Source: Bidens hawaiensis (lineage: Eukaryota; Streptophyta; Magnoliopsida; Asterales; Asteraceae). Taken from it: a stretch of 64,000 nucleotides of DNA. Location: NCBI GenBank assembly GCA_021521415.1, contig JAIQDT010000232.1, forward strand, positions 1,116,001 to 1,180,000, read 5' to 3'. Positions 8,095-63,083 of this stretch are shown here, one piece after another (position 1 is the stretch's first letter; each line of letters begins with the position of its first letter). Position numbers and translations under genes: made by a program. The notes beneath the pieces were generated by a model. That model had not been told where the DNA came from. It searched no databases and was given only the letters and a program-made list of their open reading frames with translations.

Positions 8095-8095
8095 A

Positions 8096-14469: not shown

Positions 14470-14491
14470 TGTTGGAATCGGTCTGACCAAG

Positions 14492-25629: not shown

Positions 25630-28600
25630 TGTTTACTGTAGAAGTAAAAACGAATATGAGAAGACGTAGAATTGTATTCAATATTATAATATGTTAACGT
25701 ATTTATAAGTGGTGTATCCATTGTTAATCAATATATATATTGAAGTTCTTTACGCGTTTAAATGATTGAAATACTTTATATAATTTAAAAATGAATTTTA
25801 AAGTTAATTACATAATTAAAATTGAATGTCATTCATTAACTATCCCACTGATTCGTTACTATTAAATAACGAATTGTGCGATTCGCTATCAGGTAAATAA
25901 GCCAACGAAGTAGCCTTAGCGAATTACGTGCAAGATAACGAATTAAATATTTGGTTCGTTATACTTTTAACGAATCAACATCGGATTCATGAATTCCATT
26001 CTTCGCTAAGCTAGTTCGTATATGTCCTTAACGAATTGGACACGAAACAATTTCAATTCGTTAAGGAGAACGAATGGTCCATTAATTAGACTTAATCTTT
26101 GACTCCTCATAGTCAAGGTCAAAATTAAGATGAACACAGATAGTCAACAATATGAATCCATAAGCAATTGGTCCATAACTATCGTTGATTCATCAAGACA
26201 ATGAACATGTTGAACTCGGAAACACACAATGAAGCTCATGGTGATGAGATTGAGACTCAAAACCCAGAGATATTGAGTGTAACCGGATCAAACTAAAACA
26301 CAGAAACTATGAAAACAAAATCAACCCGGCAAACTATAATCAAACGTCGATTAAAGTCCACCAAGGGTATCGAAATCACATTCCGATTACACTGAAGCAT
26401 TAATAAGCTATATAATCACAATGGTCCATAAACAAATCAGGGTTTAAAGACTCGGAATACCCTTAGACCACAAAAGTACTTAATTCATCTATCAAATCAC
26501 ACTCATTTTTGACGATAACATATCGCCGTGACCATCTATACCTGAGAAACACAAAGATATCTTTGAAATTTCGAAATATGAAAGTCAAGATTTCAGAGAA
26601 AATTTTGAATAGGGTGACTTTAGGGTGAAGGAAGAAGACGAACAGTGAAGGACTGTTCGTGTTTCTTGTCCTATATAGCTTAACTCACTACCCGAGGTAT
26701 ATAGTGGACGAATTACGCAATTCGTTTGAATTTTAAATAACGAAGTAGCTAATTCGCTATTCCAGTTCGTTACCTTAGAGTAGCGAATAAGACATGACTT
26801 GTGTCTTGATTCGTTAAATTATGTATAACGAAGAAGAGATGATTCGTTACAGAGTGCGGAAGCGAATTGGGTGAGCGAACTAGAAACCAGTTCGCTAAAG
26901 AATCACCTAGTTCGTTATCCATAATTAACGAAGTAGAATGTTAACGAATTAAACATTTTATTTAATTTTAAATTAAATAAGGAAATGAATTAGATAAAAA
27001 AATTAATTAAATAAATTACTAATTTAACATAAAAGAATTACCGAGAACCGTTTATCCTGATAACTAAATAACTTAAAAACGTTTCATTTTTACGAAACAT
27101 AACTTAAAAAAATATTTAAATAATATATATAAGAAGAAAAAAAAATAAAATCTTTTTGGTATTTTGTAAAAAATTGTAAAGAATGTATGTACAAAGAAAT
27201 ATCCGAACATTTAAAAATTGAACAATTTTTTTTTATGATTTTAATAAAAGCAATATATATTTTTTGTGTTTTTGTTGAGTTTGAGCAGAGAATCATATTG
27301 ACCAAATTGCCCTTCCATCACAGTTTTATATTTCAGCGATATTATGATTGATGTTAAGTCGGTCATTGGTATTGTTGTCCACTTAAATCTAATAACAAAT
27401 TTTCAAGTGTTTTTGTGATATGATTAATTGGTTCAATTATAGCACAGAATATCAGAAACTATCAGCCTCTAAACTCAGTTTAAGCTTAATTTGATTTTTG
27501 CCAGATCACCCCAACTTGACTTAAACCATTATAGTGTTGATCAAAACTTTTGATACCAATTGAAAAAATTTTGAGCAATGCATCAAGTTTCTTTTACTGT
27601 GAATGAATATGCACGGGTCCATCTGTCGGCTTACATACATTGTATCCCCTGGGGTCCGTTTCTTAATGGTATTAAGACGCACGCAGTGGAGGAACCATGT
27701 ATGACTAACAACGGATTTTGATCAAGTCAGTAATTTGGATTTGTACGAAGTACAACAGTGATCAAGTTTAATGACTTTGGGTTTGCTCTAGAAAGTGAGT
27801 GAAATTCCATGCTTATGAACACCCAGATGATTAAGCCGCATAAAGACTCACAGTGTCCAGAATCCTAACGCTTGTTATTTGCTTTATTATATTTTTGGAG
27901 ATCAACAACTATAAGGCTTGAGTATGAATGGTTATTACATTTCTACCATCCTTACCGAGATTTTTGCTAGAGACTAACAACCCTTTCAATTTTGCGTTTC
28001 TTTATGTTTATATCACATACTTTACTCTACTTGGTTGTTTTAAGACCTACCAATGCACCAATGCAATTAAGCACACAGTCTTTTAAGCTTACTTCTTGCT
28101 GGACTAGGAGTCAAGATAATCAATGTACTATCATTTTCTCTTTTTGCTTCAAAAACTCAAAATTTTGAGGAGCATAAAACAAAATAAAGATAAATTTAAT
28201 CGCCCCAGTTAACTTAAGTCTATAAATAAATGGTTGTTTTATCAATCCAACAAGTGAATAGTAGGACCAAGACATGCAAGCATGCTTCACAAACTTAAAT
28301 AACCGACATAATTTTTAGCGTGAAAATAATCTAAAAACGCATAACGAACGCCCCCACTATTTTCCATTATCAGGTAAATGGCTAACCTGAACATTTACAA
28401 GTAAATGTCAGGACCAAACATATACACGTACATGTCCGTCAAATGTAGATAATTGACATAATTTTCAACAAACGCACGCCAAAATCTTTTTAGATTTTCT
28501 CTATACAAACTTTAAAAAACACAATATTTTTGTCTTTTTCAATATTCTTATAAACAAAATAAATTTCATATTCTTTTTGGATTTTCGGATTTTTCTGTAC

Positions 28601-28866: not shown

Positions 28867-31086
28867 TCATCCTTGTATAAGGACATCGACGAGGGTCTTC
28901 AATCCGTTTAAACCAAGCAAAAATTTAAAACGAGTTTTGTCAAAGGCTTTGGTAAACAAATCGGCTTTCTGAAAGTCAGTATGTACTTTCTCAAGGTCAA
29001 ACAACTTCTTCTCAAAACAATCCCGTATAAAGTGATATCGAATTTCGATATGTTTTGTTTTCGAATGTTGTACGGGATTCTTTGTGATAGAAATTGCAGC
29101 AGAATTATCAATCAGAATAGGAGTAGTAAGAAACTTCAAACCGTAGTCGCGGAGATGTTGTTGTATCCACAAAACCTGTGAACAACAACTCGAGGCTGCA
29201 ACATACTCAGCTTCGGTGGTAGAAGTGGAGACCATTGCCTGCTTCTTACACTGCCAGGAAACAAGCCGGTTTCCTAAAAATTGACATCCTGCAGTCGTTG
29301 ATTTGAAGTTGATCTTGCAACCTCCATAGCCCGAGTCTGAATAAGCAGTAAGATCAAAAGTTTCATCCTTGGGGTACCACAACCCGATGTCTGGATTTCC
29401 CCTCAAATACCGAAGAATTCTCTTGACTGCATCTAGGTGAGTCACTCGTGGACTTGCTTGATACCTAGCACAAAGACAAACAACAAACATAATATCAGGG
29501 CGAGAATCTGTTAGATACATTAAAGATCCGATCATGGCACGATAGAAGGTTGGATCAACGGTATCCTCCAATTCATCTGATGATAAATTGTGACCCACTG
29601 GGAGAGGAGTAGAAGGTATTTTTCCGGCAGAAATCTTGAATCGGCTCAAGACGTCGTTCACATACTTAGTCTGATGAATGAAGATTCCGTTAGCAGACTG
29701 GTGAACCTGCAGCCCTAAAAAGAAATTCATCTCTCCCATCGAACTCATCTCGAACTTTGTTTGCATGGACTTCTCGAACTCCTTACACAATGTGTCGTTT
29801 GTAGACCCAAAAATAATATCATCAACATAAATTTGGACTAGCAGAAGATCATCACCAACAGTTTTATGAAATAGAGTGCAGTCGACAGTCCCTCTTTTGA
29901 AGCCAGTATCAGTCAGATGGTCAGCGAGCATGCCATACCAAGCTCTTGGGGCTTGATGTAGACCATACAAGGCCTTGTTTAATCGGTAAACACGGTCCGG
30001 ATACTCAGGATCTTCAAAACCAGGTGGTTGTTGGACAAACACCTCTTCGTGTAGTTCACCATTGAGAAAAGCACTCTTAACATCCATTTGGTAGACCTTG
30101 ATATTCTTATAAGCTGCATATGCCAAGAAGATTCGAATCGACTCTAATCTTGCAACTGGAGCATAGACCTCTGTGTAATCAATACCCTCTTGCTGATGAA
30201 AACCTTGCACCACTAGACGTGCCTTGTTTCTGACAATCACACCCCGATCGTCTTTCTTACACTTAAATACCCACTTAGTCGGAATCTCTTTCTTGACTCT
30301 AGCAGGCTTGTCTATTAAATCCCAAGCACCCAATCCTGTAAATTGCTGTAATTCTTCTTGCATAGCTTCTACCCAAGAAGGATCTTCAAGTTCCTTTCGA
30401 GCCGTCTTTGGCTCAACTTGGGATAGAAAGCAAGTGAATTTAGCAAGATTTACAATTCCCGATGAATGTAAATCAGTGTAAGCACACAATATGTTATTAT
30501 CACTTGACGAAGCAACTTGATGACGTGTACGAACGCCCAGATCAAGTTCTCCAATGATGTTTTCCTGTGGATGATCTCCATGAATCCGAAGAGTGGGATT
30601 CTCAAGAACAACAACATTTTCAATTAAGTTAGTGTAATGTTCACCAAGTTCAGGAGATGAAACATTATCACTGTCAAGGTTAATAACTTGATCGTCAGCT
30701 TGATTATCATCAGAAGAAGCGGAAACATTATCGATAGACACTGGAGAGGCAACTTGAGGTTCCTCAGTTGGAGCATCAGGTTGAGCTGCAACATCATTAG
30801 AACTTGAAATGCGTGGAATTGCCAAATGATCTTCAAAGTATGCTCGAACCAGGTCTTCGTCAATGTGTTCAGTTGATGGAGTAAATGAATTAAATAAACT
30901 ATCGTAGTCAAACATCCAATCGGGACCTTTCCCTTGAGGAGGAGTTGTGTACTTTTGACAGTACACGTGGTACCACTCTTCAACACAACCAGATGTAAAA
31001 TTAAATACCCTTTTCTTTGGAGATGCATATCCCAAGAAATACCCTTCGATAGCTTTTTCTTCAAATTTGCCCGCATCCTTCTTCAA
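28867..31086 (-). CDS. Reverse transcriptase-RNase H of element B
   Basis: An open frame of 739 codons. Residues 1-60 are the integrase C-terminal region ([16 protein letters not shown]). Residues 75-190 form an acidic linker. The RT shows [13 protein letters not shown] (237-249), [20 protein letters not shown] (271-290), YQMDVKSAFLNGELHEEV (about 332-349) and the catalytic YVDDIIFGS (420-428). RNase H follows with YSDSGYGGCKINFKSTTAG, SWQCKKQAMVSTSTTEAEY and IDNSAAISITKNPVQHS, ending at FTKAFDKTRFKFLLGLNGL. All main catalytic acidic residues can be read. It is the best preserved part of B, though it lacks its own start: the methionine is internal, and a frameshift separates it from the rest of integrase. 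Its wording is that of the SIRE/Maximus lineage. Confidence 0.92.
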   Translation of the reverse strand: MKKDAGKFEEKAIEGYFLGYASPKKRVFNFTSGCVEEWYHVYCQKYTTPPQGKGPDWMFDYDSLFNSFTPSTEHIDEDLVRAYFEDHLAIPRISSSNDVAAQPDAPTEEPQVASPVSIDNVSASSDDNQADDQVINLDSDNVSSPELGEHYTNLIENVVVLENPTLRIHGDHPQENIIGELDLGVRTRHQVASSSDNNILCAYTDLHSSGIVNLAKFTCFLSQVEPKTARKELEDPSWVEAMQEELQQFTGLGAWDLIDKPARVKKEIPTKWVFKCKKDDRGVIVRNKARLVVQGFHQQEGIDYTEVYAPVARLESIRIFLAYAAYKNIKVYQMDVKSAFLNGELHEEVFVQQPPGFEDPEYPDRVYRLNKALYGLHQAPRAWYGMLADHLTDTGFKRGTVDCTLFHKTVGDDLLLVQIYVDDIIFGSTNDTLCKEFEKSMQTKFEMSSMGEMNFFLGLQVHQSANGIFIHQTKYVNDVLSRFKISAGKIPSTPLPVGHNLSSDELEDTVDPTFYRAMIGSLMYLTDSRPDIMFVVCLCARYQASPRVTHLDAVKRILRYLRGNPDIGLWYPKDETFDLTAYSDSGYGGCKINFKSTTAGCQFLGNRLVSWQCKKQAMVSTSTTEAEYVAASSCCSQVLWIQQHLRDYGLKFLTTPILIDNSAAISITKNPVQHSKTKHIEIRYHFIRDCFEKKLFDLEKVHTDFQKADLFTKAFDKTRFKFLLGLNGLKTLVDVLIQG

Positions 31087-32553: not shown

Positions 32554-34101
32554 TCATTTCAGAATCTCTTTAACCAAAGAAACCGGCTTAGAGTGGTCCT
32601 TGATAAAAGGATGAAGATTCTGATAGCTCTTCTGATTACAATCCCTCACAACATGACCAAGTTGACCGCAAAGAAAACATCTTCGCATGTCTACACGATG
32701 TTGTTGTGAGGTATTTGGAATGAATGACACAGAAGATTGATGATGGCTCACATTCTTGGTCATGCACTTAGCAAACTCATCAGATAATTCAGATTTCTTT
32801 TTCAAGTTAAAATCCAAATTAGAACAATTTGAAAAACCTTTCAATGTATCTGTCCTAGTTGACTTCACAAAGTTGATTTTCTTAGCTTGTTTTAAAACTT
32901 GCTTTGCCTTAGTCATTGGGTCAGACGGAACTGATGTTTTCGCTTGAGCATATCCACGTTCAAGATCTTGAATCTGTGACGTTTCATTGATAAAGACAAT
33001 CTCAATAAATTCAGGTTTAATGATGCTTATTGGAATATCTTTTTCTGTGAACATCGTGTCCATCCCTTTTAATTTAAAAACTCTAACTGGTAAAGACTTA
33101 GAACTAGGAGGATTAACAAATCGCATTAAGTCCCCATCAGAAATCTTTGGTTTATCTGACTTCTTTGCCTTTACAGGTTTAGTTTTTACCGGTTTTTCAT
33201 TTTTCATGTGAGACTTGAATGAACCATACACAGCTTCCTCAAATTCTTGAGGTTCGCAAAGAATATGATTTGAACTTGGGATGTTCTTATTCTCGTGTAT
33301 AATCTCAGGTTCAAACACGTCCTCGATGATCACTTTGTCATCATTCTCAACAAAGACCTTTTTACTTTGAACATGAGGTTTTTGAGGAGCAACCTGGGTC
33401 TTAACAGTTTCTGTTTTAACTGATTTTTCTGGTTTAACTGGTTTAGGTTTTTCAGAAATCCCAGTTTCTTTCTCAATCAAATCCTCTTCTTTTCTAGCAA
33501 AAGGATTAATTTTGTAATCATTGTGAAATGGAAGTTGAATTTCAACAAAACCAATACCTTTCTTAGAATCCTTTTGTTTGCCATATATTTCAATAATTTC
33601 ATTTAACAGAAAAAAAGAATTTCTAAACTTTCCTAGTTTGTTCTTCAACTCAAGAACCTCATTCTCAAGCTCGGTTATCTTTGAACGATGTTTCAGAATT
33701 TCTTGAAACTTTTGATCATTAATTGTCATTTTCACAGATAACTCAGCTTTGAGATCGTGGTTACCTGTCGACAATGCTTCAATATTTTCTCAAGATTTCA
33801 TTTGAGATTCAAGAGATTGTCGATAAGTATCCTTTAGAGAAGCAATTTCTCTTACCAGATTATCATTTTGACTTTTCAAAGCTTCTAACTTAGGTCTGTT
33901 AGATTCACAAACAACACATGATACTTTAACAGATAAAGTAGCAGAGATAGAATGACAAACCTCATTGATTTTGGCCATGCAAGCAAATACTGTTGGAGGC
34001 TTGTGCCAATAGTTGTTAGAATCAGATCCAGAATCATTATCAGAAGACATCTCACTCTCACTTATATCTTGACAATCTGTATGTAATCCATACATGGCCA
34101 A
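32554..34101 (-). pseudogene. C-terminal gag/linker region of element B
   Basis: Two open pieces, 33790-34101 and 32554-33774, are separated by a stop at about 33780. The first has an acidic serine-rich start (SEMSSDNDSGSDSN) and VFACMAKINEVCHSISATLS. The second has a heptad-rich stretch that should form a coiled coil (FQEILKHRSKITELENEVLE), then lysine/proline-rich repeats of the type KPVKPEKSVKTE. It ends in a second zinc knuckle, CFLCGQLGHVVRDC. A knuckle this far downstream is typical of SIRE-type gag-pol junctions. The reading frame is interrupted again before the protease. Confidence 0.78.
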
Positions 34102-45256: not shown

Positions 45257-47362
45257 TTACTCATTATTTTCATCGCTACCCGATCCCGAGCTATTCCTTA
45301 GGTAATCGTCGTACGCGGCTTCTTCATCGGTCATTGGTTGAGTGTGTCCTTGATTGACCTCGTCTTCATACAAGCCCGCCTCATAGTCCATTTCCCCCTC
45401 GAGTGAGCGTTGATGTTGTGCCCTATCTAAAGCGTCCAAGTAATCCTTGTAGCAAATAGACATCTCTACAGCTGGTGGAGTGAGTCGAGTCCTCCTAATC
45501 GATATAACCCTGCCAGAAACAGAAAAAGCAGACTCCGAAGCTACCGTGGAAGCTTGGACAGTTAGTAAATCTTTGGCCATGGCGGCGAGGATCGGAAACT
45601 CATCCTCCTTACCTCTCCACCAAGCCAGCAAATCAAGACTTCTAAATTCATCTGGAGTCATGTGTTTCACAAAGTTGGTACCACCATACCTTCCAAGTTC
45701 ACTGCTTGGGGTGTTTACCTTTTGACGTTTACCGGCGTCTTCCCAAATCATGTAGTACATCCCCATTTCAAGGTCGGTTTGGGATTGGGATTGGGCAACA
45801 GCTCTTAACGAGTCATGAATTTGGGAAGACGACCCGTATTTTGTAAGGTAAACATCATACATGTTAGACAAGGTGGTGTTGAAAGCATTCTTTAAAGTTT
45901 GGTTATAATAGGGGTTTTGATCGTCGTTTAACTCTAGCTCATCACAAATTTTTTCTATTAAAGCTTCAACACCACCAACATTTATGCAAGGGTTTAACGC
46001 AGCAGCACATGTCAAAACAGCGGGTAGTTGTTGAAAATATTTTCTAAATTTTTCTTTCATTTTTACACCCATATCAAAATAAGGTGCACCCCTACAATGA
46101 AGTTCACTCAACTTTGTGCACATGACAGCAATTTTTGGTAAAGCAATGGGGCTTGTTGGATAGTAAACCCCGGATAAACTTGTTGTGCAAGATTTAAAAA
46201 TTTGAAGTACCTCCGTAACGATCTCAATCAATAACCAGTTTCTAGGATCGTACGGTGCACATTTACCCCTACTTGACATTATTTGATGAAACGCAACTAG
46301 TGATTCTTTTTGTTGGATGGCTTTCTCAAATATATCACAAGTCGAGTTCCATCTTGTTGGACAATCCCAATTGGGCCCCAACCATTGACAATTAGCTTCA
46401 TCACAAAATTTTTTGTATCTTGAAAATGTTTTATTGTTGCTAAAAACATCTCGTAACATTCTTTTAAAATTGTTTCTTTGCGTCTCGATCACGTTTAACC
46501 CATCTTGCACGGCCAAGTTGATAATATGTGCAATGCATCGGCTATGAAAAAACGCTCCATCACAAATAGGTTTATACTTTAATTTTAAATGGCCAACCGC
46601 GGCCGTATTGTTGGACGCGTTATCAAACGAAATTGAAAAGATTTTATCTTCAATCTTGTATTGTCGAATGACTTTATCCAAGAGTTTAAAAATATTTCTG
46701 CCCGTGTGCGGGTAATCAAACAATTGAAACGCAATGGTTCGTTTCATCATTTGCCACGACCCGGGGTCAACCCAATGAGCCGTCACACAAATGTATGAGT
46801 CGGGCGAACCATTAGGTACCGACCACACATCCGTTGTTAAGTTTACACCAGTTTGTAAGTTTGAAAAGTATGAAATTAGTTCGGATTTAGCGTTTTTCCA
46901 AGCTTTAAGACAATCTCTTCTAAGGGTCGAACGACTTACGTGTTGGTAGCGTGGTTGAACATACTTTTGCATCATCGACGTGAATTGAGGGTTGTCGAAG
47001 TGGTTGAAAGGAAGTGTATTTTGAATCACAAAGTTTGAAAACTGTTGACGTACCTCTTCAAGGTCGTACGTAAACACCGTTCCTTGATTCGTCATCTCCG
47101 GCTGTGAACTACTTCCCGATTCGTCCTTCAAGGCCTTGCAAAAGGGCCTTTGTACATGCGCTCTTAAAGTGGAGTTTGCATCTTTGCCATAAAACTTCAA
47201 ACAATGTTTGCATCGAGCTTTTTGGGTACCGTTAGACATTTCGCATAGGTCGAAATGTTGCCAAACATCTTGGTTTCGTTTCGTGGGGATGACCCGAACG
47301 ACCGTTTCTCCCGTGTTCGAGGCACCCATGTTGACGGATGAAGCAGCACTTTGGGAGGCCAT
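45257..47362 (-). CDS. hAT transposase (BED zinc finger, RICESLEEPER/Ac type)
   Basis: An open 701-codon frame. A BED-type zinc finger lies at residues about 31-75, with ligands C51, C54, H69 and C75. The central RNase H-like catalytic fold shows NLTTDVWSV (D178) and SISFDNASNN (D247), followed by the cysteine/histidine block FFHSRCIAHIINLAVQDGLN at about 273-292. The C-terminal dimerisation region is LLAWWRGKEDEFPILAAMAK, then STVASESAFSVSGR with E610 as the likely third catalytic acid, and RRTRLTPPAVEMSIC. The acidic tail ends at residue 701. The start at 47362 (MASQSAASS) precedes the zinc finger by about 30 residues, a normal spacing. It cuts and pastes the element by binding its termini. 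All three catalytic acids are present; no internal stop or frameshift. Confidence 0.95.
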   Translation of the reverse strand: MASQSAASSVNMGASNTGETVVRVIPTKRNQDVWQHFDLCEMSNGTQKARCKHCLKFYGKDANSTLRAHVQRPFCKALKDESGSSSQPEMTNQGTVFTYDLEEVRQQFSNFVIQNTLPFNHFDNPQFTSMMQKYVQPRYQHVSRSTLRRDCLKAWKNAKSELISYFSNLQTGVNLTTDVWSVPNGSPDSYICVTAHWVDPGSWQMMKRTIAFQLFDYPHTGRNIFKLLDKVIRQYKIEDKIFSISFDNASNNTAAVGHLKLKYKPICDGAFFHSRCIAHIINLAVQDGLNVIETQRNNFKRMLRDVFSNNKTFSRYKKFCDEANCQWLGPNWDCPTRWNSTCDIFEKAIQQKESLVAFHQIMSSRGKCAPYDPRNWLLIEIVTEVLQIFKSCTTSLSGVYYPTSPIALPKIAVMCTKLSELHCRGAPYFDMGVKMKEKFRKYFQQLPAVLTCAAALNPCINVGGVEALIEKICDELELNDDQNPYYNQTLKNAFNTTLSNMYDVYLTKYGSSSQIHDSLRAVAQSQSQTDLEMGMYYMIWEDAGKRQKVNTPSSELGRYGGTNFVKHMTPDEFRSLDLLAWWRGKEDEFPILAAMAKDLLTVQASTVASESAFSVSGRVISIRRTRLTPPAVEMSICYKDYLDALDRAQHQRSLEGEMDYEAGLYEDEVNQGHTQPMTDEEAAYDDYLRNSSGSGSDENNE

Positions 47363-47589: not shown

Positions 47590-48012
47590 AACGGGAAAAA
47601 ACTGGTTTTTAACCGGTTAACCGGTTTTTTTATAACGGTCAAAAACCGGTTTATAAAAAAACCGGTTAACCGGTTTTTCTAATAAACGGTTATTAAAAAA
47701 ACCGGTTTTTTAAAAACCGGTTATTAAAAAAACCGGTTAACCGGTTTTTTTATAAACCGGTTTTTGACCGTTATAAAAAAAACCGGTTAACCGGTTAAAA
47801 ACCGGTTTTTTTCCGGTTTTTTAAAAACCGGTTATTAAAAAAAACCGGTTTTTTTTAAAACCGGTTATAAAACCGGTTTAGGCTCCAAATTGTGTAACCG
47901 ATATACAAACCGCCGGTTTGTAAACCGGTCAAACCGGTTTACAAAAAACCGGTTTTCTTAAAAACCGGTTTCCGGTTTAAACCGGCAAACCGGTTCGAGG
48001 ACCGGTTTTTTT
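47590..48012. repeat. Right subterminal AACCGGTT array of the hAT element
   Basis: About 420 bp dominated by aaccggttt and its complement, separated by runs of A or T. It is the likely transposase-binding zone, upstream of the transposase gene. Confidence 0.9.
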
Positions 48013-50617: not shown

Positions 50618-50886
50618 GCTGAAAATTATGTCAATTATCTACATTTGAAGGGCATGTACGTGTATATGTTTGGTCCTGACATTTACTTGTAAATGTTCAG
50701 GTTAGCCATTTACCTGATAATAGAAAATAATTGGGGCGTTCGTTATGCGTTTTTAGATTATTTTCTCGCTGAAATTTATGTCGGTTATTTAAGTTTGTGA
50801 AGCATGCGTGCATGTCTTGGTCCTATTATTCACTTGTTGAATTGATAGAATAGCCATTTATTTATAGACTTAAGTTAACTGGGGCG
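50618..50886 (+). other. Tandem structured module pair in element C
   Basis: Units at 50618-50738 and 50768-50886, starting 150 bases apart. The first holds GAAAATTATGTC, hairpin A (50651-50676) ending in TTTGGTCC, hairpin B ACATTTA-CTTG-TAAATGT (50679-50696), TTAGCCATTTACC and GGGGCG. The second has the same order with different stem sequences (GCATGC...GCATGT; TTCA-CTTG-TTGAA). Confidence 0.82.
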
Positions 50887-51000
50887 ATTAAATTTATTTT
50901 TATTTTGTTTTTTTATGCTACTCAAAATTTTAAGTTTTTGAAACAAAAACAGAAAATGATATTACATTGATTATCTTGACTCCAAATCCAGCAAAAAGTA

Positions 51001-51254
51001 AGCTTAACAAACTGTGTACTTAATTGCATTGGTGCATTGGTAAGTCTTAAAACAACCTAGTAGAGTAAAGTATGTGATATAAACATAAAGAAACGCCAAA
51101 TTGAAAGGGGTGTTAGTCTCTAGCAAAAGCTTAACAAACTGTGTACTTAATTGCATTGGTGCATTGGTAAGTCTTAAAACAACCTAGTAGAGTAAAGTAT
51201 GTGATATAAACATAAAGAAACGCCAAATTGAAAGGGGTGTTAGTCTCTAGCAAA
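51001..51254 (+). repeat. 127-bp tandem duplication
   Basis: 51001-51127 and 51128-51254 appear identical. Element B has a single copy of the unit near 27960-28110, so the duplication arose in C after divergence. Confidence 0.92.
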
Positions 51255-53535
51255 AGTTTCGGTGAGGATGACAAAAATGTAATAACCAGTCATACTCAAG
51301 CCTTATAGTTGTTGATCTCCAAAAATATAATAAAGCAAATAACAAGCGTTAGGATTCTGGACACTGTGAGTCTTTATGCGGCTTAATCATCTGAGTATTC
51401 ATAAGCATGAATATTTCACTCGCTTCCTTGAGCAAACCCAAAGTCATTAAACTTGATCATTGCTGTACTTAGTACAAACTTCCAAATTACTGACTTGATC
51501 AAAATCCGTTGTTAGTCATACATTTGTTCCTCCCTTGCGCGCGTCTTAATACCATTAAGAAACGGACCCAGGGGATACAATGTATGTAAGCCAACAGATG
51601 GACTCGTGCATACTCACTCACAGTAAAGGAAACTTGATGCATTGCTCAAAATTTCACAATTGGTATCAAAATTTTGATCAACACTATAATGGCAAAAATC
51701 AAATTAAGCTTGAACCGAGATTAGAGGCTGATAGTTTCTGATATTCGGGGCTTTAACTGAACCATTAAGCATATCACAAAAACACTAGAAAGTTTGTTAT
51801 TAGATTTAAGTGGACAACAATACCAATGATCGACTTAACGCCAGTCATAATATCGCTGAAATATAAAACTGTGATGGAAGGGCACTTTGGTCAGTATGAT
51901 TCTCTGCTCAAACTCAACAAAAACACAAAAATAAGTACTGCTTTTGTTAACTCATAGAAAACACAAAAAGATTGTTCAATTTCAAAATGTTCGGATACTT
52001 CTTTGTACATATATTCTTTAAAAATTTTTACAAAATACCAAAAGTATTCTATCTTTCATTCTTTACATATTATTTAATTTGTTAAGTTATGTTTCGAAAA
52101 AGAGAAACAGTTTTAATATATTCAATTATCGGGATAAAAGGTTCTCGGTAATTCTTTTAAGTTAAATCTATTTATTATTTAATTCATTTATTTATTTAAG
52201 TTAAAATTAAATAAATTTTTTAATTCGTTAAAAGTTAATTCGTTAAGTATGAATAACGAACTAGGTGATTCTTTAGCGAACTACTTTCTTGTTCGCTCAC
52301 CCAATTCGCTTCCGCACTCTGTAACGAATCACCTCTACTTAGTTATACATAGTTAACGAATCAAACTACAATACATATCTTGTTCGCTATTCTGACGTAA
52401 CGAATTGGAATAATTATTTACCTAATTCGTTATTTAAAATTCAAATGAATCATTTGATTCACCTTGGGGGTGTGTTAGGCTATATAGGACATAAACACGA
52501 ATCGTCCATTCACTATTCACCATCTTTCTTCAACCTAAAGCACCCTTTTCAAAAATTTTCCTTTGATTTTCGATCTTCAAATTTTGACATTTCAAGGATA
52601 TCATTGTGACACTAAGGTATAAACGATCACCACGATGTGATTTTCGTAAAAAATGATGGTGTTTTAATACACTAATTATGGACTTTTGTGTTCAAAGGGT
52701 TTTCCGTGTTCTAAACCCTAATTTATTTATGATATACTGTGTTAATGTTAATTTTTGGATTCATTGTGTTCGGAATGTGATTCTGAAACCCTTGGTAGAC
52801 ATTAATCGATGTTTGATTTTTGTTTGCTGGGTTGATTGAATGTGTATGTATTCGGGGTTTTAGGCTCTGTTTAACTCTTTGATTATTCGTATTCATTTCA
52901 AGGTGTTAAGCCTCAATCTTAACACCATGAGCTTCGTATTGTGATTCTGAGTTGGATAAATCTGTGGTTTTGGTTACTCGATGTTCTGTTTGGGATAATT
53001 GAATCTGGATTTGTCATATTGACCGTCGGTGTTCTTATGCTATTTTGACTTTGACTACGAAAGTCAAACATTGAGTCTAATTATTGGCCATTCGTGATCC
53101 TTAGAGATTTGGGACTGTTTCGTGTCCAAATCGTTAAGGAAATACACGAATTAGATTAACGAATAAATTAGTTAACGAATCAGATGAGGATTCGTTAATT
53201 TATAACGAACTAGATCCTAGTTCGTCCTTGTGAATAGTAATTCGCTTGATCTACTTCGTTAGCTTATTTACCTGATAGCGAATCACTTGATTCGCTACTG
53301 AATAGTAACGAATCAAAGTGATATTCACACGAATGACATGTTTTTTAATTACATTTAAAAAAAATATTACTCCAACCGTCTAAACGCGTAAATAAATTAA
53401 ATGAAATTAAATACATAAACATGTTTTTTAAACACGTCTAAACATATCATATGAAATTAAATACACCATTTAGACATAAATAGATATATATTACCTGTTC
53501 ATATTTCTTATCTTGATTTATATTCATTCAGTAAA

Positions 53536-55290
53536 ATGGCTGATCAAGTGAATCAAGATACACCGATTGCTAATCAAGAGCAGCTAGAACATCCTGCTAT
53601 TGATCAAGGGCAGCAAGAACAACCACCACAAGAGGAACCTCCTCAAGAACAGCATGACGATGTTATTTTATTACCGTTTGATAAGAAACATAACATCTGT
53701 GCCTATGTTGATCAAGATGTTGCTGATGTTGCTACATTTGGAGCTATGTTTACTTTCCTAAGACGCTCGGTGATACATTACGCATCACTGCTCAACCTAA
53801 AGTTTATCTAAGTATTATTAGGTAGTTTTGGGATACAGCTGAGTATGTGGAGGAGGAGAAGCATATTCGAGCCATGATTAATGAAACTCTATTACAACTG
53901 ATGTTGAAGTAATTCAGCGTGTGCTTCGATTTGATGATACTGATGATAACCCGAGTTAATTTGATAGGCAGCAGGTCAAGGGTTTGTTTACACGTGTGCG
54001 TTATGGTGGAGACATTAATAAATCTATGTTGAACAAGAATGGATTATGCCCATCATACAATTATCTTCTCCATGTTCTTATTCAATGCATGAGTGGTGTC
54101 GTGGTGGCTTTGACGAATGTCGACTCAGTTTGCAATCACCCTTTGTGGCTTTAATCCTCAATAAGCCATTCAACTACTCCGAGCTTGTATTCGATCATTT
54201 GAGAAAACAAGTTCAGCAGACGGACCAGAAGAAGATATTTTTAATGTATCCTCGGTTTTTGTAGTTGATTATTCAAGATTTGATACCTAATTTAGTTATT
54301 GATCAGACCCTGGTGAATGATAAGTTTCCTATGGAACACATGACGGCTGACACAGTACGTAGACTGGCGATTTATCGAAAGGCAAGGCCAGCGGATAAAC
54401 GAATGATTGGTCGCATCGTTAATCCTAATTATGTATGTCCTTCCGAGGATCGTTGGATTCATGATGATTCTGATTCTGAGCGTGAGGAAGGAGAAGGTGG
54501 GAACAATGGTTATGATGGAGATAATGGTGGTAATGACGGTGGTAATGGTGATGCCGCTCTTAAAGAACAACAAGATGCAGTTAATGTTGCATTAGCTGCC
54601 ACCATTGTAGCTCAACTAGAAAGAAAGAGAAAAGGGAAAGGTGTGGCAACTGGTGAGCCATCTAAGAAGAGACGTGTATCTGCTGGGGCTGGTGTAATCA
54701 TTGGTGTGCCACCACCTCGTCAAACAATGCCTCAACGCTCGGTAGTGCCGGTTACAACTAGCACTCCGGCGATGACTTTAACAACGACGATGGTTCCACA
54801 TGAGCAGTTGGGTATGATTCCTCAGTCAGCATTAACTGAAATACCTTTGCCGACTGATACAGTGGCAACAGTTCCACCAAAAACATCCATGAGGCCTCCT
54901 CCTCCTAGTGATCTCTCATTTAAGAGAATTACAAGGCCTCAAGGTCCAATCCAACCAGTTCATCCATCCTTGTATGCTTTGCCACCAAATCGTCAGACAG
55001 AAATGATTTTAAATCTTTTGCATTTATATGAGAACCAGATGTCTGCTGATCAGTTGAATCAAGAACGCTTAATGAAGAATCAGAAGAAACTAATCAGTTA
55101 TGTTTCTTTCTGTCAAAAAGAAACCAAGGCCCTACGTGATTGTTGAGTCTCAGGGGGTGAAACTGAAAGAACAAGAGGATCTGATTTTGCAATTGACATG
55201 AAAAGATGATGCTTTGAAGAAGATCAAGAATAATGAGGAAGATCCTGATGCTGATGAGTCTGGTGCTAGTGGTGAGCCTAAATAAACTCA
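53536..55290 (+). pseudogene. aORF of element C (5' part, cut by element F)
   Basis: It starts MADQVNQDTPIANQEQ, followed by a glutamine-rich segment (QQEQPPQEEPPQEQ) and IILLP-like residues leading to FDKKHNICAYVDQDVADVAT. A frameshift near 53790 and a stop near 53958 break the next 200 residues. The pieces 54046-54264 and 54265-55146 hold PLVALILNKPFNYSELVFDH-like and MYPRFLMIIQDLIPNL-like residues, separated only by a TAG where B has leucine/glutamine context, then SEDRWIHDDSDSEREEGEG, a glycine/asparagine-rich tract and KRKGKGVATGEPSKKRR. The reading continues in a shifted frame to 55285 (EDPDADESGASGEPK) and stops at the F LTR. A basic nuclear-localisation-like patch and no transmembrane segment argue for a nuclear or particle-associated role, but the function is unknown. 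Confidence 0.78.
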
Positions 55291-55851: not shown

Positions 55852-56350
55852 AGGTTCTTATGCTATGGTTCGAGATCTGCGTTTTGGTGTTTCCGGCACG
55901 TTTCTTATGCGTTTCTGGCCTAATCAATATCCAGTTTCAATCAATATCCCATTCACAACCTCAACTCCATATCCAGAGTTGACACGTATTTGTTCACACG
56001 TAAGACCAAGAGATAACAAGTTTCACTCGTTGACGGAACAACGTCTTCGGTCTCACAATAATCGTGTACACCTGGCCATACAGACGAAAACTCCAAACAC
56101 TTTTTTTTTTTTTTTTAACTTCGCCTAAAGTCAACTTCGCTCCTCCTTAACTTCGCCTATCCAAAACTTCGCCTGACAGATAACTTCGCCTGAGATAAGC
56201 GAACTTGTGAGGTAGGCGAAGTTGTGAATAACTTCGCTTATCTAACAAGTTCGCCCATATCAGGCGAACTTGAGACTCAACTTCGCTTAATTCAAATACA
56301 AAACATTACTAACTCGATTACAGACACTAGACACTGAACTACTGACATCA

Positions 56351-56440: not shown

Positions 56441-59326
56441 TTAAGCATGAACTCCTTCACGTACACAAACTGATACAATTCTTTGATATTTCTTCGCTTC
56501 GTCTTTCCAAGCAGGAATATAAAATATCTTCTTCTCATTCAGCACCTGCAGATCAGCTTGAGACAGGTTCACTAGATGCATCAGATCATATACTCTCAGC
56601 AGCTCTTGTTCATTTTCGTCCTCCATTACTGCTTCAGCTGTTTCACAATCTACATACCACCACTTCAGATCTTTCAGCACATCCTTGGGCATTTGTTTCA
56701 TCTGCACTTCTTTTAGACACCGGATCGGCTTATACTTCATAATCATCCAAGGCTTGCCATCTGCTCTCATTCCTCTATCTTTGTCTTCCATAAGTTTTCC
56801 CTTTTGTGGTTTCAACAGCTCGAACTTCTTCTTCTTTATACTTTCCTTCCAAACAATCTTCCCAATGACTCTAGCCATATTATCATCACTCCTGTTTATT
56901 AACCCCAATATGGCTAAGTCTTTCACTTCACATTCTGGCAATGTATTCAACGATCTCAACATCCTCTTGAAGTACTAAACACCATCATACCTTTTAATCA
57001 CAAAGAGCCTCAACTGCTCATCATATATCCAGCATATAATCCCCTTTCTCGATTCAGCATAACCTCTAATGTTGTAACTCTTCTTGAACATAGTAGGGAC
57101 CGCCGGTTTCTTCGTTTTTACAAACCACTGAGCGTAGCCTTCTTTCCATCTTGGCTGCTCTTCCCATTCTGTCTCATCATTTCCAATCTCTTTATTCATA
57201 TCTGCCTTTTCAACATCCGGAATTTCATGCTCCACATTCTCCTCTACTATCTCTCCCTCTTCAATATCATTATCAATAACAATCTCTGCACCAATCTTCT
57301 CTATCTCATCAACTGGTAATACATCATCATCACCTATAAACTCATCATCCATCTCCTCAACATCCACAACCACCACCTCATCACCTGTACCGCCCGCTGC
57401 ACTTGTTGACTCCCCCTGAGATGTGGAAGTCCCAAGAGCTTGTTCAGTTCTTGGCAACTCTCCACCTGCACCTTTCGATGCATTGGGATCATCGTCTCGA
57501 TCATTTCGCTTCTTAGTCCTTAGTTCATCGACCTTACAGCTCGTCTCCCCCTGAGATGCCAAGAACACCTTCAAAGCATCAATGATTTTGCCATGTTCGA
57601 TCAGCAGGGACGACTGTATTTGATTCTCTACAACGAGGCACTGAATAGCAAGGGTCTGGATAAGATTCACCCTTGATTGTTCTGCCACGACCCGTTCAAG
57701 TGCTGCTATTCTCTCCGTGTCGGATAAGGTTGCATCAAAATCAAATCTCAGATGTGATATATCTTGAGTGTACTGAGGAGGGATTTCCATTGTAACCGGG
57801 ACCTCAGAAGTAGGCGTAAACGTAACCACAGGTGGCAACGTAACTGACAACCCTGCAGTTGCTACAACCGTCGACTCAATAAATCTTGCCACAACCTCCG
57901 TTGGAATAAGAGTTTGAGGCGGCAACGATACAATCTCAGGAGCCGAAAGTTGAAATGTAGTGGGTGGGAGGCCGAATGCAGATAAGGTAGCCACCACGGG
58001 AACATCCGTGGCGCTTGGCCTTGTAACTTGTAATGATGAGGGAACCATGGTCATACCGGACAGTGCGGGTGGAGTGAAACGTACCACCCTTGAGCTCTCA
58101 CCAGCTCCCGAACCTGCACATGTCCGTTCCCTTCTTGATCTACGAACCAACTGATGTACTTCTTCCTCATAATCTGACTCGCTGTCATCATCAGTTCTCT
58201 TTCTTTTCCCATGAATTCGTTCTTGAGTTACCAAAATTCGTCTCGCTTCAGCCACATCATCATCTGAATTAGAATCAGCCACCGTCTGAGCTGGCCTAGC
58301 AATATTCACACTCGAAACCCTTTCAACTGAGACCTGTACATCTTACTCAGGGTCAACCCGATCCATATCAAAGAAGCCTTGACCATCAAGGTCTACATTC
58401 TCCTCCGGTGACACAACAAGATCAGCAGGTATAGCTTGAGGTGCTCCAGCCTGTTGTGGTGCCGGGTCCCGAAACTCATCCCCACGAGCAGGCACATACT
58501 CCGGGTTGATCAAGTACCAGAATAATGGAGTATGTCGAGGACGGAGCTCAGGTTTACTCCTCGCACTGGAAGATCTGCACTGGGCGAAGATCCTTTTACT
58601 CACACTTTCTACATATCTGATAGGGCGGCGCTGAGGTAACGTTGGAGCAACGTGATTCAAGATCATCTGAATGAATCTTGGATACATGAGAAATCTCTCA
58701 CGCGCCACCGCTCTTCTCTGTCGATCTATCTCGTAGAAGACCATCTGACTAAAGCTGTAACGCTTATTATAAGTCAGAGCAGTCATCGCCGACTGCTTGG
58801 TCGCGCCCATCCCATCAGTACCAGCCTTTCTCCCAGACATGCACACAATCATCACATGCATGAGAAAGCGCCACTGGTCTAGCAAGAACCCCTTGCGTCT
58901 CTGAGTATCTCCCAAGGGACCAGAGTATCCCATTCTCAGAAACGCTCCATCTCGGAAAGGAGCTACAAAGTCTGTCGGATCGTCTCTCGTTTCGTCTCCA
59001 AACCGCAAAGCCGCCCGGATCTGTTCAGATGAGAACTGAACAATCTGATTATTGACCGTTGCTCGCATCACCGGGGGCTCGACGCGACAGTCATACTCCA
59101 CTGTCTGCCAAAAATCCTCAATGTTTGGCAAGGATATCGGCAGTGTTGTAGTAATCGCGTGGAATATACGCGAGCGGAGTAAGAATGTGATGATCTCGCG
59201 GAAATCATCAACACCGCTCGCATCCGGGTCTAATGTTATATACATGTTATGACCCGGGAAAAACTGTCGATGGTTGTCTCCTCCATCATCACCGCCTGCA
59301 CCGCCTGCTCCAGCTACAGCAGCCAT
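56441..59326 (-). pseudogene. aORF of segment D, one frame with two stops
   Basis: A 2,886-nt single reading frame on the minus strand, interrupted only by stop codons near 58340 and 56972. The N-terminal part (59326-58343) contains FREIITFLLRSRIFHAITTT, IEDFWQTVEYDCRVEPP, WRFLMHVMIVCMSGRKAG and RFLMYPRFIQMILNHV, a globular domain also present in B. The middle (58309-56975) is acidic and serine/threonine-rich with basic patches (HGKRKRTDDD). The C-terminal part (56962-56441) has WWYVDCETAEAVMED and LLRVYDLMHLVNLSQADLQ, aligning with the B C-terminal domain. At the second stop (TAG) the B homologue has CAG in KGVQYY, so a C-to-T change explains it. No signal peptide or membrane span was seen. 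Function unknown. Confidence 0.82.
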
Positions 59327-61415
59327 ATCTGCAACAAACAGGCTAAGTTAGATAAACGTCAAGGCAAATCACAAGTTCGCCTGTTACCATGAGCGAAGTT
59401 GTGATTTATTCTGTATATGCGAAGTTAGAGGTGGGGCGAAGTTGGGAACAACTTCGCCTCAACTTGAACTTCGCTGTTAACAGTTAATTAAAATTAAAAG
59501 TGCCAGGCGAAGTTAATGATAACTTCGCCTAACCACAACATCGACCCAAATACTGTTACATAATTAATTATCAGGCGAAGTTAAACATCAGGCGAAGTTA
59601 CAGATAACTTCGCCGAATATGAATCGGCAACAGTTAGGTTTTCGAATGAACTGATTTGGTAAATTTTGAAGATCGTGGACTGTTAAACACATGTTTTAGA
59701 GATGATCTAGACTATTAATATGATTATGACCACGTGAAAAAGGTTTGAAAATTGGGTGGTTAGGTTTCGAAATACGGAGGTCGTGAATCGGGTCGAAACG
59801 ACCGATGATTAACGTTAAGGTTAGTGATTCTACGACACTACAAGCCTACACACCTTTAATCGGATTAGAACGAAAGAAAAATAAACACAGATGATAATCG
59901 AAGGATAAGTTCGCCTAGGTTTCTGGAAGATATCTTCGCTTAGGGTTACGGAGATAAGTTCGCTGGGTTTTTGAAAATAATGAACAGTTTGACCTTAAAA
60001 CTTCTTTATATAGGGTCAAAATTTTACAGGCGAAGTTATGGATAACTTCGCCTATTGCAGGCGAAGTTATGCACAACTTCGCCGATATTAGATTTTTACA
60101 AAACAAACCCCATAATTTGAACAATTTGCAATTAAGTTTTAAAACAACCTTTAAAGCGTTAAATGATACGATCAAGACCAAGTAACCAGGTATAAAATCA
60201 TACAACTACATTAGTAGGAAAAACTTTTAAAAATAAAGTACACGAGATCAAATTTCAGTCTCGACAGGGACTACCATGTTTTAGAAAAGATCCGAACAGG
60301 AATCATACTAATTACGTGACTGTCACACAGATCCGTGTTCAGCTGTATTATGACATAAAGAAACAGGTTGTAAGCAGGCAAATAACTTAAAATGGTTTTC
60401 ATCGTTTCTGTGATATGGGTTAGGTTCAATTAAGCTCAAAACTTAAGTGGGCAACAACTCAGAGATTATGATGCCTCCTATCTATTCTCAAAGCGTATTT
60501 GGCTTTCCCCAAGTCACCCCGAGTTGACCTCGACCCGTACTGTCTGATTAAATTGTAAGTACTCTTCGATCTTATACTCTTCTTCCCGTTCTCTATCTTG
60601 CATCTTGATTGAGAAGTCTTAACATTATGAACTCTAGAATGTCTCAATAACACACAATTTTTTTTTTTTTAATATTTACATAACTTCAAAGTAGTAAACA
60701 ACTGCAAGTCCCGAATCTGGATCACTGCAGTTTCTTGACACGCTATCTTCACGGGAATCAGATCACTCACGGGCTCGTGTATGACTGGGTAATCGCTTTT
60801 CTGCCTATCATTCGGAAAGGTATATATGGAGACATACACAACTCTTATGGAGTTTCCACGTAAAATCGAGTAGATTTAGTTAGTATCACTTCTACTTTTA
60901 CGCACCAGGAAAAGCTACCATGACATACAATGACAGTTCTAAAGTCTTTTAGGCCTAATAACTTCACTAGTTAAGCACACAGAATCAGTATATCTATCAC
61001 TTTCCAAGGTTGGATCAATTTTCTGTTAAACATAGTAAAGGAACTTCTTACGAAGTAGTAGACTAGAAAAATAATTTCATCTCCCCAAAAATTTTAACTT
61101 CAATCGCCCCGATCAAATTGAAGTTTTCAGGTAAACGGCTATCCTGAAGATCCAATGGATCAGCTGGACCGACCACATACAAGTATGTGTCCTTCTAACT
61201 ACTTATGAACGACTAATTTTCAGCGAAAGAATAAAAACACATCATAAATCGCCCCGGTCACTTTCAGTCATCTGGTTAATGGCTATCCTCATATTCTAAA
61301 AGTAGAAATGAGGACCAAACATATCCGAAGATATGTCCTTCAAACTGAGGCAACCGACATAATTCTAAGCAATAGTGACGTTTTTTTTTTTTTTTAACAA
61401 AGACTAAATACACGG
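59327..61415 (-). other. Non-coding spacer of segment D
   Basis: About 2.1 kb between RNase H and aORF. 59360-59620 and 60020-60090 are rich in aacttcgcc/ggcgaagtt pairs, several forming hairpins. The structured module pair is at 61105-61370. A run of T lies at 60658-60671 and another at 61380-61396. No coding potential was seen. Confidence 0.75.
61105..61370 (-). other. Tandem structured module pair in segment D
   Basis: Units at 61105-61224 and 61250-61370, 145 bases apart. Hairpin A of the upper unit is ACATATC-TTCG-GATATGT on the coding strand (61319-61336), a C(UUCG)G tetraloop. Hairpin A of the lower unit is CACATA-CTTG-TATGTG (61174-61189). Each is followed by GGTCC, a second hairpin, TAGCC(A/G)TT and GGGGCG, as in B and C. 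Confidence 0.82.
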
Positions 61416-63083
61416 TTACTCGGGATTGATCATCCCATTCAACTCAACAAGGTTTTGAAAACGGTTTTTGTCAAACGCTTTAGTGAACAAATCAGCGAAA
61501 TTATCTAACGTATCAACCTTTTCGAGCACAATCAGTTTCTTCTCAGCACAATCCCGTATAAAATGATGACGGATGTCAATGTGTTTAGTTTTACTGTGCT
61601 TTACGGGATTGTTAGTTACTGAGATAGCAGCAGTGTTATCTATGCAAATAGGAGTATGAGTGAAATTCAGACCATAATCGAGAAATTGCTGTTGAATCCA
61701 AAGAACCTGGGAGCAGCAGTTGGATGCTGCCATGTATTCTGCTTCACAGGTTGAAATGGCGACTGAGGTCTGCTTCATGCATTGCCATGACACTAATCTG
61801 CCTCCAAGAAACTGACATCCACCTGTTGTTGACTTTCGATTCTGATTGCACCCTCCATAATCAGAATCCGTGTAGGCGACCAACTCCAAGTCTCCTCCCA
61901 TCGTGTACCACAACCCCAGCTTAGGTTTGCCTTTGAGATAGCGCAATATCCTCTTCGCACCCTTCAAGTGAGATTCCTTTGGGTTTGCCTGAAAGCGTGC
62001 ACAAAGACAAACTGCAAACATAATATCAGGCCTAGAAACAGTTAAGTACATTAAAGAACCTATTATTGCCCGATATTGGGTTGGGTCCACGTCTGCATCA
62101 TTGTCTGAATTAGCACCCAATTTATGGTTGACGCAGACTGGAGTATCAAATGGAGTGTTGTCCTCCATCTTGAAGCGTTTGAGAACATCATGGACATACT
62201 TAGTCTGATGAATGAACATCCCATCTTTCTTCTGATCAACCTGCAGTCCTAAAAAGAAAGTTAGTTCACCCATAACACTCATTTCAAATCTCTTTTTCAT
62301 GACGGCCTCAAATTCCTGACACATGGCGACTTTTGATGCAGCAAAGATGATGTCGTCCACGTAGACTTGCACCAGAAGAAAGTCGCTTCCTTTTCTCTTA
62401 AAGAACAATGTGCTATCAATCTTTCCCCATTCAAACTCATTCTCAAGCAAGTAGTAGGATAGTGTTGAGTACCAGGCACGAGGTGCCTGATGTAGCCCGT
62501 ATAGCGCTTTACTTAGCTTGTACACACGATCGGGAAAGTCTGGGTCAGGAAAACCCGGAGGTTGCTCAACGTACATAACCTCATCGACTTTACCGTTAAG
62601 GAACGCACTCTTCACGTCTAACTGAAATACTTTCATCTCCTTATGTGCAGCAAATGCCAAAAACAATCGAATGGCTTCCATTCTCGCCACAGGAGCAAAC
62701 ACCTCATTGTAATCGATCCCCTCTTGCTGATTAAAACCTTTTACAACCAACCTCGCCTTGTTCCTGATAATAATCTTTTTCTCATCTCTCTTGCATTTGA
62801 AAACCCAGTTGGTGCCAATCGCATGCACATTCTTCGGTTTTGCAACCAAATTCCATACCTCCATCTTCTTAAACTGGGCTAACTCTTCTTGCATGGCTTC
62901 GACCCATGAGCTGTCCTTAAGAGCCATCTGATAGTTCTTTGGTTCAATCTGGCTGACGAAGCAGGTGTACAAGCATTCGTTGATTATGCCCGTATCTTTA
63001 ATGCTTGTGTAAACACAGGTGTGCTCATTCAAGCTTTGTCTTGTTTGTACACCGTCGGACAGATCACCTATCACGTTTTCCAA
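61416..63083 (-). CDS. Reverse transcriptase-RNase H of segment D (5' truncated)
   Basis: Open for 555 codons from an internal methionine; the same frame can be read upstream to about 63175 (SLIDELPSNLEDNLDV). RT blocks: [19 protein letters not shown] (59-77), NWVFKCKRDEKKIIIRNKAR (92-111), FQLDVKSAFLNGKVDEV (153-169) and the catalytic YVDDIIFAAS (241-250). RNase H: YTDSDYGGCNQNRKSTTGGC, SWQCMKQTSVAISTCEAEY and IDNTAAISVTNNPVKHSKTK, ending FTKAFDKNRFQNLVELNGM. All catalytic acids are present and there is no internal stop, so the domain is well preserved. Gag, protease and integrase are missing upstream because the segment ends near 63175. SIRE/Maximus-like, a different subfamily from B/C. Confidence 0.92.
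   Translation of the reverse strand: MENVIGDLSDGVQTRQSLNEHTCVYTSIKDTGIINECLYTCFVSQIEPKNYQMALKDSSWVEAMQEELAQFKKMEVWNLVAKPKNVHAIGTNWVFKCKRDEKKIIIRNKARLVVKGFNQQEGIDYNEVFAPVARMEAIRLFLAFAAHKEMKVFQLDVKSAFLNGKVDEVMYVEQPPGFPDPDFPDRVYKLSKALYGLHQAPRAWYSTLSYYLLENEFEWGKIDSTLFFKRKGSDFLLVQVYVDDIIFAASKVAMCQEFEAVMKKRFEMSVMGELTFFLGLQVDQKKDGMFIHQTKYVHDVLKRFKMEDNTPFDTPVCVNHKLGANSDNDADVDPTQYRAIIGSLMYLTVSRPDIMFAVCLCARFQANPKESHLKGAKRILRYLKGKPKLGLWYTMGGDLELVAYTDSDYGGCNQNRKSTTGGCQFLGGRLVSWQCMKQTSVAISTCEAEYMAASNCCSQVLWIQQQFLDYGLNFTHTPICIDNTAAISVTNNPVKHSKTKHIDIRHHFIRDCAEKKLIVLEKVDTLDNFADLFTKAFDKNRFQNLVELNGMINPE

Follow-up and report, generated by a model that had tools for sequence, protein, structure and literature searches.

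Does the non-coding DNA between pol and the open frame that follows it (the aORF) encode an RNA structure that selection has maintained in three retroelements at this locus, and what might such a structure do? A preliminary description had pointed to two tandem units of about 120 nt in element C, each carrying two hairpins and a set of short boxes in fixed order, and to the same arrangement in elements B and D. It proposed selection on RNA structure. All structural data below come from one window, the whole stretch of 64 kb that was analysed, and six units found there count as four non-redundant ones.

Six units in three elements

Self-comparison of the window places element C on the + strand and elements B and D on the − strand. 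Both units of C were read with their ordered parts, and the same order recurs at nearly the same spacing in B and D, as had been described. Unit starts lie 150 nt apart in C, 150 nt apart in B (28468 and 28318) and 146 nt apart in D (61369 and 61223). The units are listed here with their scores from a covariance model built on all six (R1) or their single-sequence z against dinucleotide shuffles:

50619–50738 (+): C unit 1, the complete three-way-junction module; R1 140 bits, itself a training member; also seen in folds
50769–50886 (+): C unit 2; R1 123.4 bits, itself a training member; z −2.42
28349–28468 (−): B unit 1; R1 134.5 bits; 95.2% identity with C unit 1
28201–28318 (−): B unit 2, hairpin B largely broken (−1.1 kcal/mol); R1 114.4 bits
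61250–61369 (−): D unit 1, hairpin A with a UUCG loop, 46 bases past the pol stop codon; z −3.49; held-out scores below
61105–61223 (−): D unit 2; held-out scores below

The order of parts in each unit is (A/T)TTATGTC, hairpin A, TTGGTCC, hairpin B, a TAGCCATT-like box and GGGGCG, with ATTA-GTC and TCGGTCC as variants in D2 and AACCATT in place of the TAGCCATT-like box in B2. All six units of the preliminary description are present, although the modules of B and C are 94.6% identical over 277 columns, and since these two elements are sister, close copies, only C1, C2, D1 and D2 were counted as non-redundant.

The six-unit covariance model, which had been suggested beforehand, recovered the same six units when the 64 kb were scanned, the next-best match reaching 15.8 bits (E 0.22). 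A model trained on B and C also scored 21.0 and 19.3 bits (E 0.0085 and 0.023) within self-complementary repeats at 47658–47848, matches that we read as noise. No module rose above noise in the LTR-bounded stretch 7539–17854 scanned with the covariance model (best match 13.2 bits, E 0.99). A third, degenerate unit near position 50929 of C, suggested by a 17-nt direct repeat, was dropped, as the covariance models returned six units only. A coding origin of the modules was likewise rejected, with stops in all three sense frames in B, C and D. Among viral contigs, the search for module relatives gave no pattern match and none of 124 was confirmed; among prokaryote genomes, 0 of 75 were confirmed. 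Directly after the C module lies a 133-bp tandem duplication (51000–51259, 99% identical), which is present as a single copy in the B alignment.

Rfam at its curated threshold gave two matches in the window, neither of them inside a module. In permissive scans, matches in C and B fell only outside the module, and the D module was overlapped by three sub-threshold snoRNA matches (E 1.1–2.9). Elsewhere in the window, a match to the snoRNA snR37 at 47604–47934 exceeded its cut-off (52.1 versus 47 bits) and is probably spurious, as the region beside the hAT insert is full of self-complementary repeats. At 20097–20229 (−), a fragment of the 3′ end of a bacterial-type small-subunit rRNA (103.5 bits) is probably organelle DNA.

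A predicted three-way junction and its statistical support

From alignment reading and consensus folding, each unit of ~120 nt is predicted to fold into a three-way junction made of a closing stem, P1, and hairpins A and B. The two hairpins of the preliminary description are thus both present; the closing stem, whose strands lie ~90–100 nt apart, had been missed. Because P1 joins the unit ends, much of the boxes TTGGTCC, TAGCCATTT, GTC and GGGGCG is helix. P1 is formed by the same columns in the four non-redundant units, and C2 and D2 contain mismatches there. For C unit 1, the parts are:

50631–50638 (+): P1, 5′ strand, partner 50727–50734; double-sided change in 4/8 pairs (C1, C2, D1, D2)
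50727–50734 (+): P1, 3′ strand, partner 50631–50638
50650–50651 (+): inner closing pairs, GG with partner CC at 50713–50714; AA/UU in C2; double-sided change in 2/2
50652–50669 (+): hairpin A, CGTG loop; double-sided change in 4/7 pairs; supported by shuffles
50671–50708 (+): hairpin B arm; double-sided change in 1/3 outer and 5/11 inner pairs; supported by shuffles

The two-pair inner step (GG/CC, or AA/UU in C2) precedes the junction. Hairpin A has 5–9 bp in single folds and a loop of CGTG, CTTG or TTCG. The hairpin B arm of C1 consists of an outer step TGG/CCA, an internal loop of T against TTAG and an inner stem (50675–50685 with 50690–50701) closed by a CTTG loop; its core, ACATTTA-CTTG-TAAATGT, is exactly the 7-bp stem with CTTG loop noted previously. 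Among the units, the outer step reads CGG/CCG in D2, where both partners have changed, the internal loop (one T against (A/T)TAG) is altered in B2, and the inner-stem loop is CTTG, CTTT or short. In D2, the loop of hairpin B is shorter and the outer stem is imperfect. Invariant letters that remain unpaired in a 31-pair model are mainly ATTATG (one T of which is absent in D2), the internal loop and the final letters of GGGGCG. Base-pair probabilities were mostly intra-unit, with 0.0 (B), 2.1 (D) and 5.4 (C) expected inter-unit pairs.

The paired structure was evaluated on sequence-only MAFFT alignments, on which all counts rest. For C1, C2, D1 and D2, RNAalifold returned a consensus of −24.15 kcal/mol (−3.75 of it from covariation) with 38 pairs, 16 of them changed on both sides; column shuffles within gap and conservation classes gave −3.47 ± 2.27 kcal/mol, with 0/300 as low (z −9.1). 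In the 31-pair model of the four units, 90.1% of cells pair, compared with 78.8 ± 2.0% in letter shuffles and 36–41% with slid partners, and 16 of the 31 pairs are changed on both sides, compared with 6.1 ± 1.8 in shuffles; none of 500 letter shuffles matched the model for paired cells, and none of 500 for double-sided pairs. When columns were permuted within classes (3000 trials), 42 ± 6.5% of cells paired (maximum 66%), with ≤11 double-sided pairs. The claim that stem sequences differ while pairing is kept thus held. For ‘further pair types’, one of the five measures used on pairs, 86/500 shuffles attained the observed value with six rows and 3/500 with four.

Support was distributed unevenly over stems and units. 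Mononucleotide segment shuffles, combined over C1, C2, D1 and D2, gave P values of 2.7e-6 for hairpin B, 1.2e-3 for hairpin A and 1.0e-3 for P1. Taken by unit, hairpin B was significant in C1, C2 and D1 and stood at 0.05 in D2; hairpin A was significant in C1 and D1, not in C2 (P 0.19) or D2 (P 0.11); and P1 was significant in C2 and D1, not in C1 (P 0.28) or D2 (P 0.55). Swapping arms between the four units, the own partner was best in 2/4 cases for P1 and in 3/4 for each of the hairpins. The B/C-trained covariance model scored D1 at 97.8 bits with pairs (R2) and 52.3 bits without (R3), and D2 at 55.1 and 29.9 bits, in a test that withheld D from training, not from pair choice, the structure having been picked with all units in view, and in which the models with and without structure had unequal effective sequence numbers (1.25 and 2).

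The pairwise consensus fold of B1 and D1 reached a z of −7.2, compared with a mean of −0.94 and a lowest value of −3.04 for 12 pol windows. Pairwise folds of second units were no different from shuffles (B2/D2 z −0.16, C2/D2 z −0.51), and units inside one element reached a consensus z of only −2.3 (C1+C2 −2.33, D1+D2 −2.28). Folded singly, C2 (−2.42), B2 (−2.63) and D1 (−3.49) stood out against dinucleotide shuffles, and C1 (−0.76), B1 (−1.14) and D2 (−0.51) folded no better than these; single-sequence folding was dropped as a criterion, as only the former three stand out.

Host elements, conservation and strand

The module sits between pol and the aORF, and the two occur together in all three elements (3/3). 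The relevant frames are:

61416–63083 (−): D pol open frame (RVT_2, Pfam), stop codon at 61416–61418
28867–31086 (−): B pol open frame (RVT_2, Pfam), ending ~400 nt before unit 1
24002–25219 (−): B aORF open frame as listed; 29% over 154 aa to the D aORF, 79% over 303 columns to the C aORF
54265–55146 (+): C aORF open frame as listed, sharing 79% with the B aORF in 303 columns
58343–59326 (−): D aORF open frame; 22 relatives

The distance of the module from the pol stop varies between elements: 46 bases in D, including a run of 15 A, and ~400 in B. In C, nested insertions separate the module from its own pol, namely a hAT transposase (45257–47362) and LTR-like DNA up to ~50490. The hAT transposase open frame encodes 701 aa on the − strand. 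From unit 2 to the listed aORF frame, there are 1.77 kb in D and ~3.0 kb in B, and 6.3 kb separate pol from the 3′ LTR in B. The D aORF is followed by a 444-aa open frame without a Pfam match (56975–58309, −), which has basic and acidic stretches and contains two exact copies of the polypurine tract (PPT) octamer.

Marks used for SIRE/Maximus were an RVT_2 pol, a primer-binding site (PBS), a AGGGGGAG PPT 10 bp before the LTR and an ORF after pol. Next to the B LTR lies TGGTATCAGAGC, which we take to be PBS-like. The 3′ LTR of B is preceded, at a distance of two bases, by a PPT-like AGGGGGTG that differs in a single letter from the Sirevirus octamer AGGGGGAG (PMC2829016), and the exact octamer occurs at 28811, after the B pol. 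B also has a frame with a CCHC knuckle (32554–33774, PF00098). Of the best 120 of 7999 pol relatives, the named ones are nearly all from the daisy family, with one from the grass Paspalum, and the 21 named relatives of the D aORF (out of 22) are from Smallanthus and Tanacetum. PF20167 was matched at E ≤ 0.1 by 18 of 24 aligned aORF proteins. Judged by these marks and relatives, the elements would fit SIRE/Maximus (Ty1/copia) elements of a daisy-family plant.

The pol frames of B and D are identical in 62% of 554 aligned residues and in 63% of nucleotides. At fourfold-degenerate sites, 41/129 are identical (31.8%), compared with 28.0% expected from composition alone; these sites are saturated, and neutral sequence should therefore be past recognition between the B and D lineages. 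The tandem block nevertheless aligns in 288 columns at 66.3% identity (E 5.5e-26), a stronger match than any other from the end of pol through the aORF. It is conserved as well as pol at the nucleotide level and better than the aORF protein. In a sensitive comparison of that region, four matches had E values under 1e-3, namely the tandem block itself, two matches across units and a weaker block (B 27400–27545, −; D 60396–60552, −; 164 columns, 64%, E 2.4e-5), which lies ~0.65 kb (B) or 0.54 kb (D) beyond the tandem block and is non-coding, without an open frame or structure signal. The consensus fold, the double-sided changes, the held-out model and a conserved block beside saturated sites together argue for a selected RNA structure, in agreement with the preliminary description. 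By comparison of the units, we conclude that a selected structure, predicted as two tandem three-way-junction units, is present in SIRE-like copia elements.

As to the strand, the sense consensus energy was below the antisense one in 6/6 subsets. The consensus z (sense/antisense) was −9.10/−6.81 for the four units, −8.92/−5.88 for all six and −8.06/−4.41 for C1+D1; the antisense value was the lower one in three of the six subsets, namely C1+D1+D2 (−7.37/−7.82), D1+D2 (−2.28/−3.00) and C1+C2 (−2.33/−3.12). Antisense single-sequence z values were −1.81 (C1), −0.30 (C2), −0.90 (B1), 0.56 (B2), −3.36 (D1) and −1.61 (D2), that is, lower than on the sense strand for C1 and D2 and about equal for D1 (−3.36 versus −3.49). 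Each unit has 3–4 G-U cells in sense, and A-C cells, the counterpart of G-U on the opposite strand, number 0–1 in five units and 3 in B2, a count that is biased because pairs were picked on the sense strand. CTTG and TTCG loops fit RNA hairpins. Action of the module in the element's sense RNA is accordingly the favoured reading, not a proven one.

Possible roles of the module

Among the papers listed in searches of open-access literature, none was found to describe such a fold in SIRE-type elements in the stretch that separates pol from the extra frame. This agrees with the preliminary description, which named none. The closest account, in the available part of the Sirevirus paper (PMC2829016), covers copies of the PPT, an inverted repeat located there and palindromes that mostly have a CGG-CCG core; the module corresponds to none of these. 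The accessible portions of two papers on additional frames (PMC11963269, PMC11728184) and one on lineages (PMC6317226) contain no mention of such a fold, and a paper from 2025 that deals with structured RNAs of plants (PMC12218528) contains none of the terms Asteraceae, Asterales, transpos-, tandem, junction and repeat.

Several known systems resemble the module in part. Like the RM boxes of Sireviruses, it is repeated, symmetric, non-coding and located between pol and an envelope-like frame of what is apparently the same lineage (PMC2829016). RM boxes, however, are palindromes of short length whose core is mostly CGG-CCG, present in 8–32 copies per element and also in LTRs (PMC2829016), whereas the module measures ~120 nt and occurs in two copies, with no conserved stem sequence and no common core. 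D also has RM-like palindromes, away from the module: at 59435–60083 and 56215–56238, six similar palindromes close to GGCGAAGTTATnnATAACTTCGCC in sequence, with a CGAAG core, were found at ≤3 mismatches versus 0 expected, five of them upstream of the aORF and the sixth past it on the 3′ side. The MPMV/SRV constitutive transport element (CTE) is likewise a structured cis element in retroelement RNA with a doubled motif, but it forms a single long stem-loop of 150–175 nt with two internal loops (PMC7551171); the module is predicted to form two separate three-way junctions with few inter-unit pairs. The direct repeats of Rous sarcoma virus (RSV) are also two copies, used there for export, but flank src (PMC7551171), whereas the module copies start 146–150 nt apart. 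The RSV RNA stability element (RSE) lies close past a stop codon with many kb of RNA after it, and the module may be comparable in this, its distance from the pol stop being 46 bases in D and ~400 in B; the RSE follows gag, spans 400 nt and lies in sequence that presumably also holds pol (PMC5580461), whereas the module follows pol and is non-coding. The LTR retrotransposon Cer1 has an extra nuclear protein, CERV; no such cis RNA element is named in the available part of that paper (PMC10309623).

The role that we rank first, and tentatively, is in transport and stability. The tandem module may be a docking site through which the unspliced full-length transcript leaves the nucleus and escapes decay. 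The full-length RNA of the element would have to exit the nucleus unspliced, and during its translation several kb would follow the stop codon of pol (in B, 6.3 kb up to the LTR); RNAs with such an extension are marked for decay. A protein of the host or of the element could dock on the module in this region, the doubling of the unit giving greater strength or allowing a dimer to bind, and the docked protein would keep the RNA exported and protected, hence available for translation and packaging. Functionally, such a module would be akin to three retroviral elements, while being distinct from each: the CTE and the RSV direct repeats, both of which recruit NXF1 (PMC7551171), and the RSE, which lies directly downstream of gag and protects RNA with a 7-kb 3′ UTR (PMC5580461). 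In a plant assay, decay resistance was linked to a lack of structure just past the stop, which counts against this reading, although recoding structures were also protective there (PMC6277124). The varying distance of the module from the pol stop counts against it as well. It is also conceivable, though improbable, that the system is Rev/RRE-like or CERV-like, in which case the aORF protein, hitherto termed envelope-like, would be a nuclear RNA-binding protein that docks on both modules in order to export or sort full-length RNA. This idea draws on NLS-like basic stretches identified by eye (KRKGKAVATGEPSKKRR within the B aORF, and both GKRKR and RRSRRER within the frame that follows the D aORF), on the joint occurrence of module and aORF in B, C and D, and on the precedent of Cer1, where CERV is needed for genomic RNA export (PMC10309623). 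The structure prediction for the D aORF (pLDDT 65.7) had no PDB match at E ≤ 0.001 and hence gives no hint of RNA binding.

Ranked second, and rather unlikely in our view, is a packaging or dimerisation signal, with Gag, which carries a zinc knuckle, binding the tandem modules on full-length RNA. B does contain a CCHC-knuckle frame, and two structured modules, which no spliced aORF mRNA would carry, would suit the selection of full-length RNA. Known packaging signals, however, lie mostly near the 5′ end, and the units share no self-complementary loop (CGTG, CTTG, TTCG, CTTT and ATT were found). Ranked third and less probable is a control of aORF expression, as a splicing switch, an internal promoter region or a ribosome entry site, for which the position between pol and aORF in all three elements would be suitable. 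The Smallanthus gene model P0001 joins pol (1–219) to the aORF (225–496) and omits the stretch corresponding to the D module, but it is a predicted model and the sole pol–aORF join among the 6 of 22 relatives listed. Splice acceptors have been predicted in other plant elements and an internal promoter has been considered for the Sirevirus ENV (PMC2829016); stem letters that vary with pairing kept are a poor fit to a DNA promoter, and D has separate palindromes closer to the aORF. Given the distance from unit 2 to the listed frames, a direct effect on the start of aORF translation, one of the roles originally proposed, is unlikely.

We give little weight to a reading without any role in sense RNA, be it as RM-like DNA palindromes, antisense RNA or hairpins that feed small RNAs. 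Sirevirus RM palindromes do lie upstream of ENV (PMC2829016), predicted structure in Sireviruses accompanies small RNAs (PMC10760457), and the antisense strand of the module also folds better than shuffles. On the other hand, most RM copies within one element are >85% identical, whereas the units differ in stem letters with pairing kept, and the sense energy was the lower one throughout. Very unlikely, too, is a ribozyme or an exonuclease-resistant RNA that yields a shorter transcript by processing or by blocking decay. Viral exonuclease-resistant RNAs do use tandem three-way junctions, and a pseudoknotted ring that stops a 5′–3′ exonuclease is their mark; the modules match no Rfam family at threshold, and the letters of C1 and D1 that resemble the hammerhead core are not kept in C2 or D2. 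A hammerhead ribozyme was rejected on the same two grounds, no Rfam match and candidate core letters that vary among units, and no tRNA was found. A neutral tandem duplicate that folds by chance is strongly disfavoured. The data do comprise only two clearly separate lineages, with weak pairwise tests for unit 2, but 66% identity beside saturated synonymous sites and a consensus energy reached by none of the 300 column shuffles speak against it.

Cis-acting RNA structures govern much of the life of animal retroviruses, and SIRE-type elements are abundant in plant genomes. If the Rev/RRE-like reading were true, the ‘envelope’ gene would gain a job without the need for cell-to-cell spread. A tandem module kept while synonymous sites saturate may offer a concrete handle on RNA export, protection or packaging in these elements and on the purpose of the aORF.
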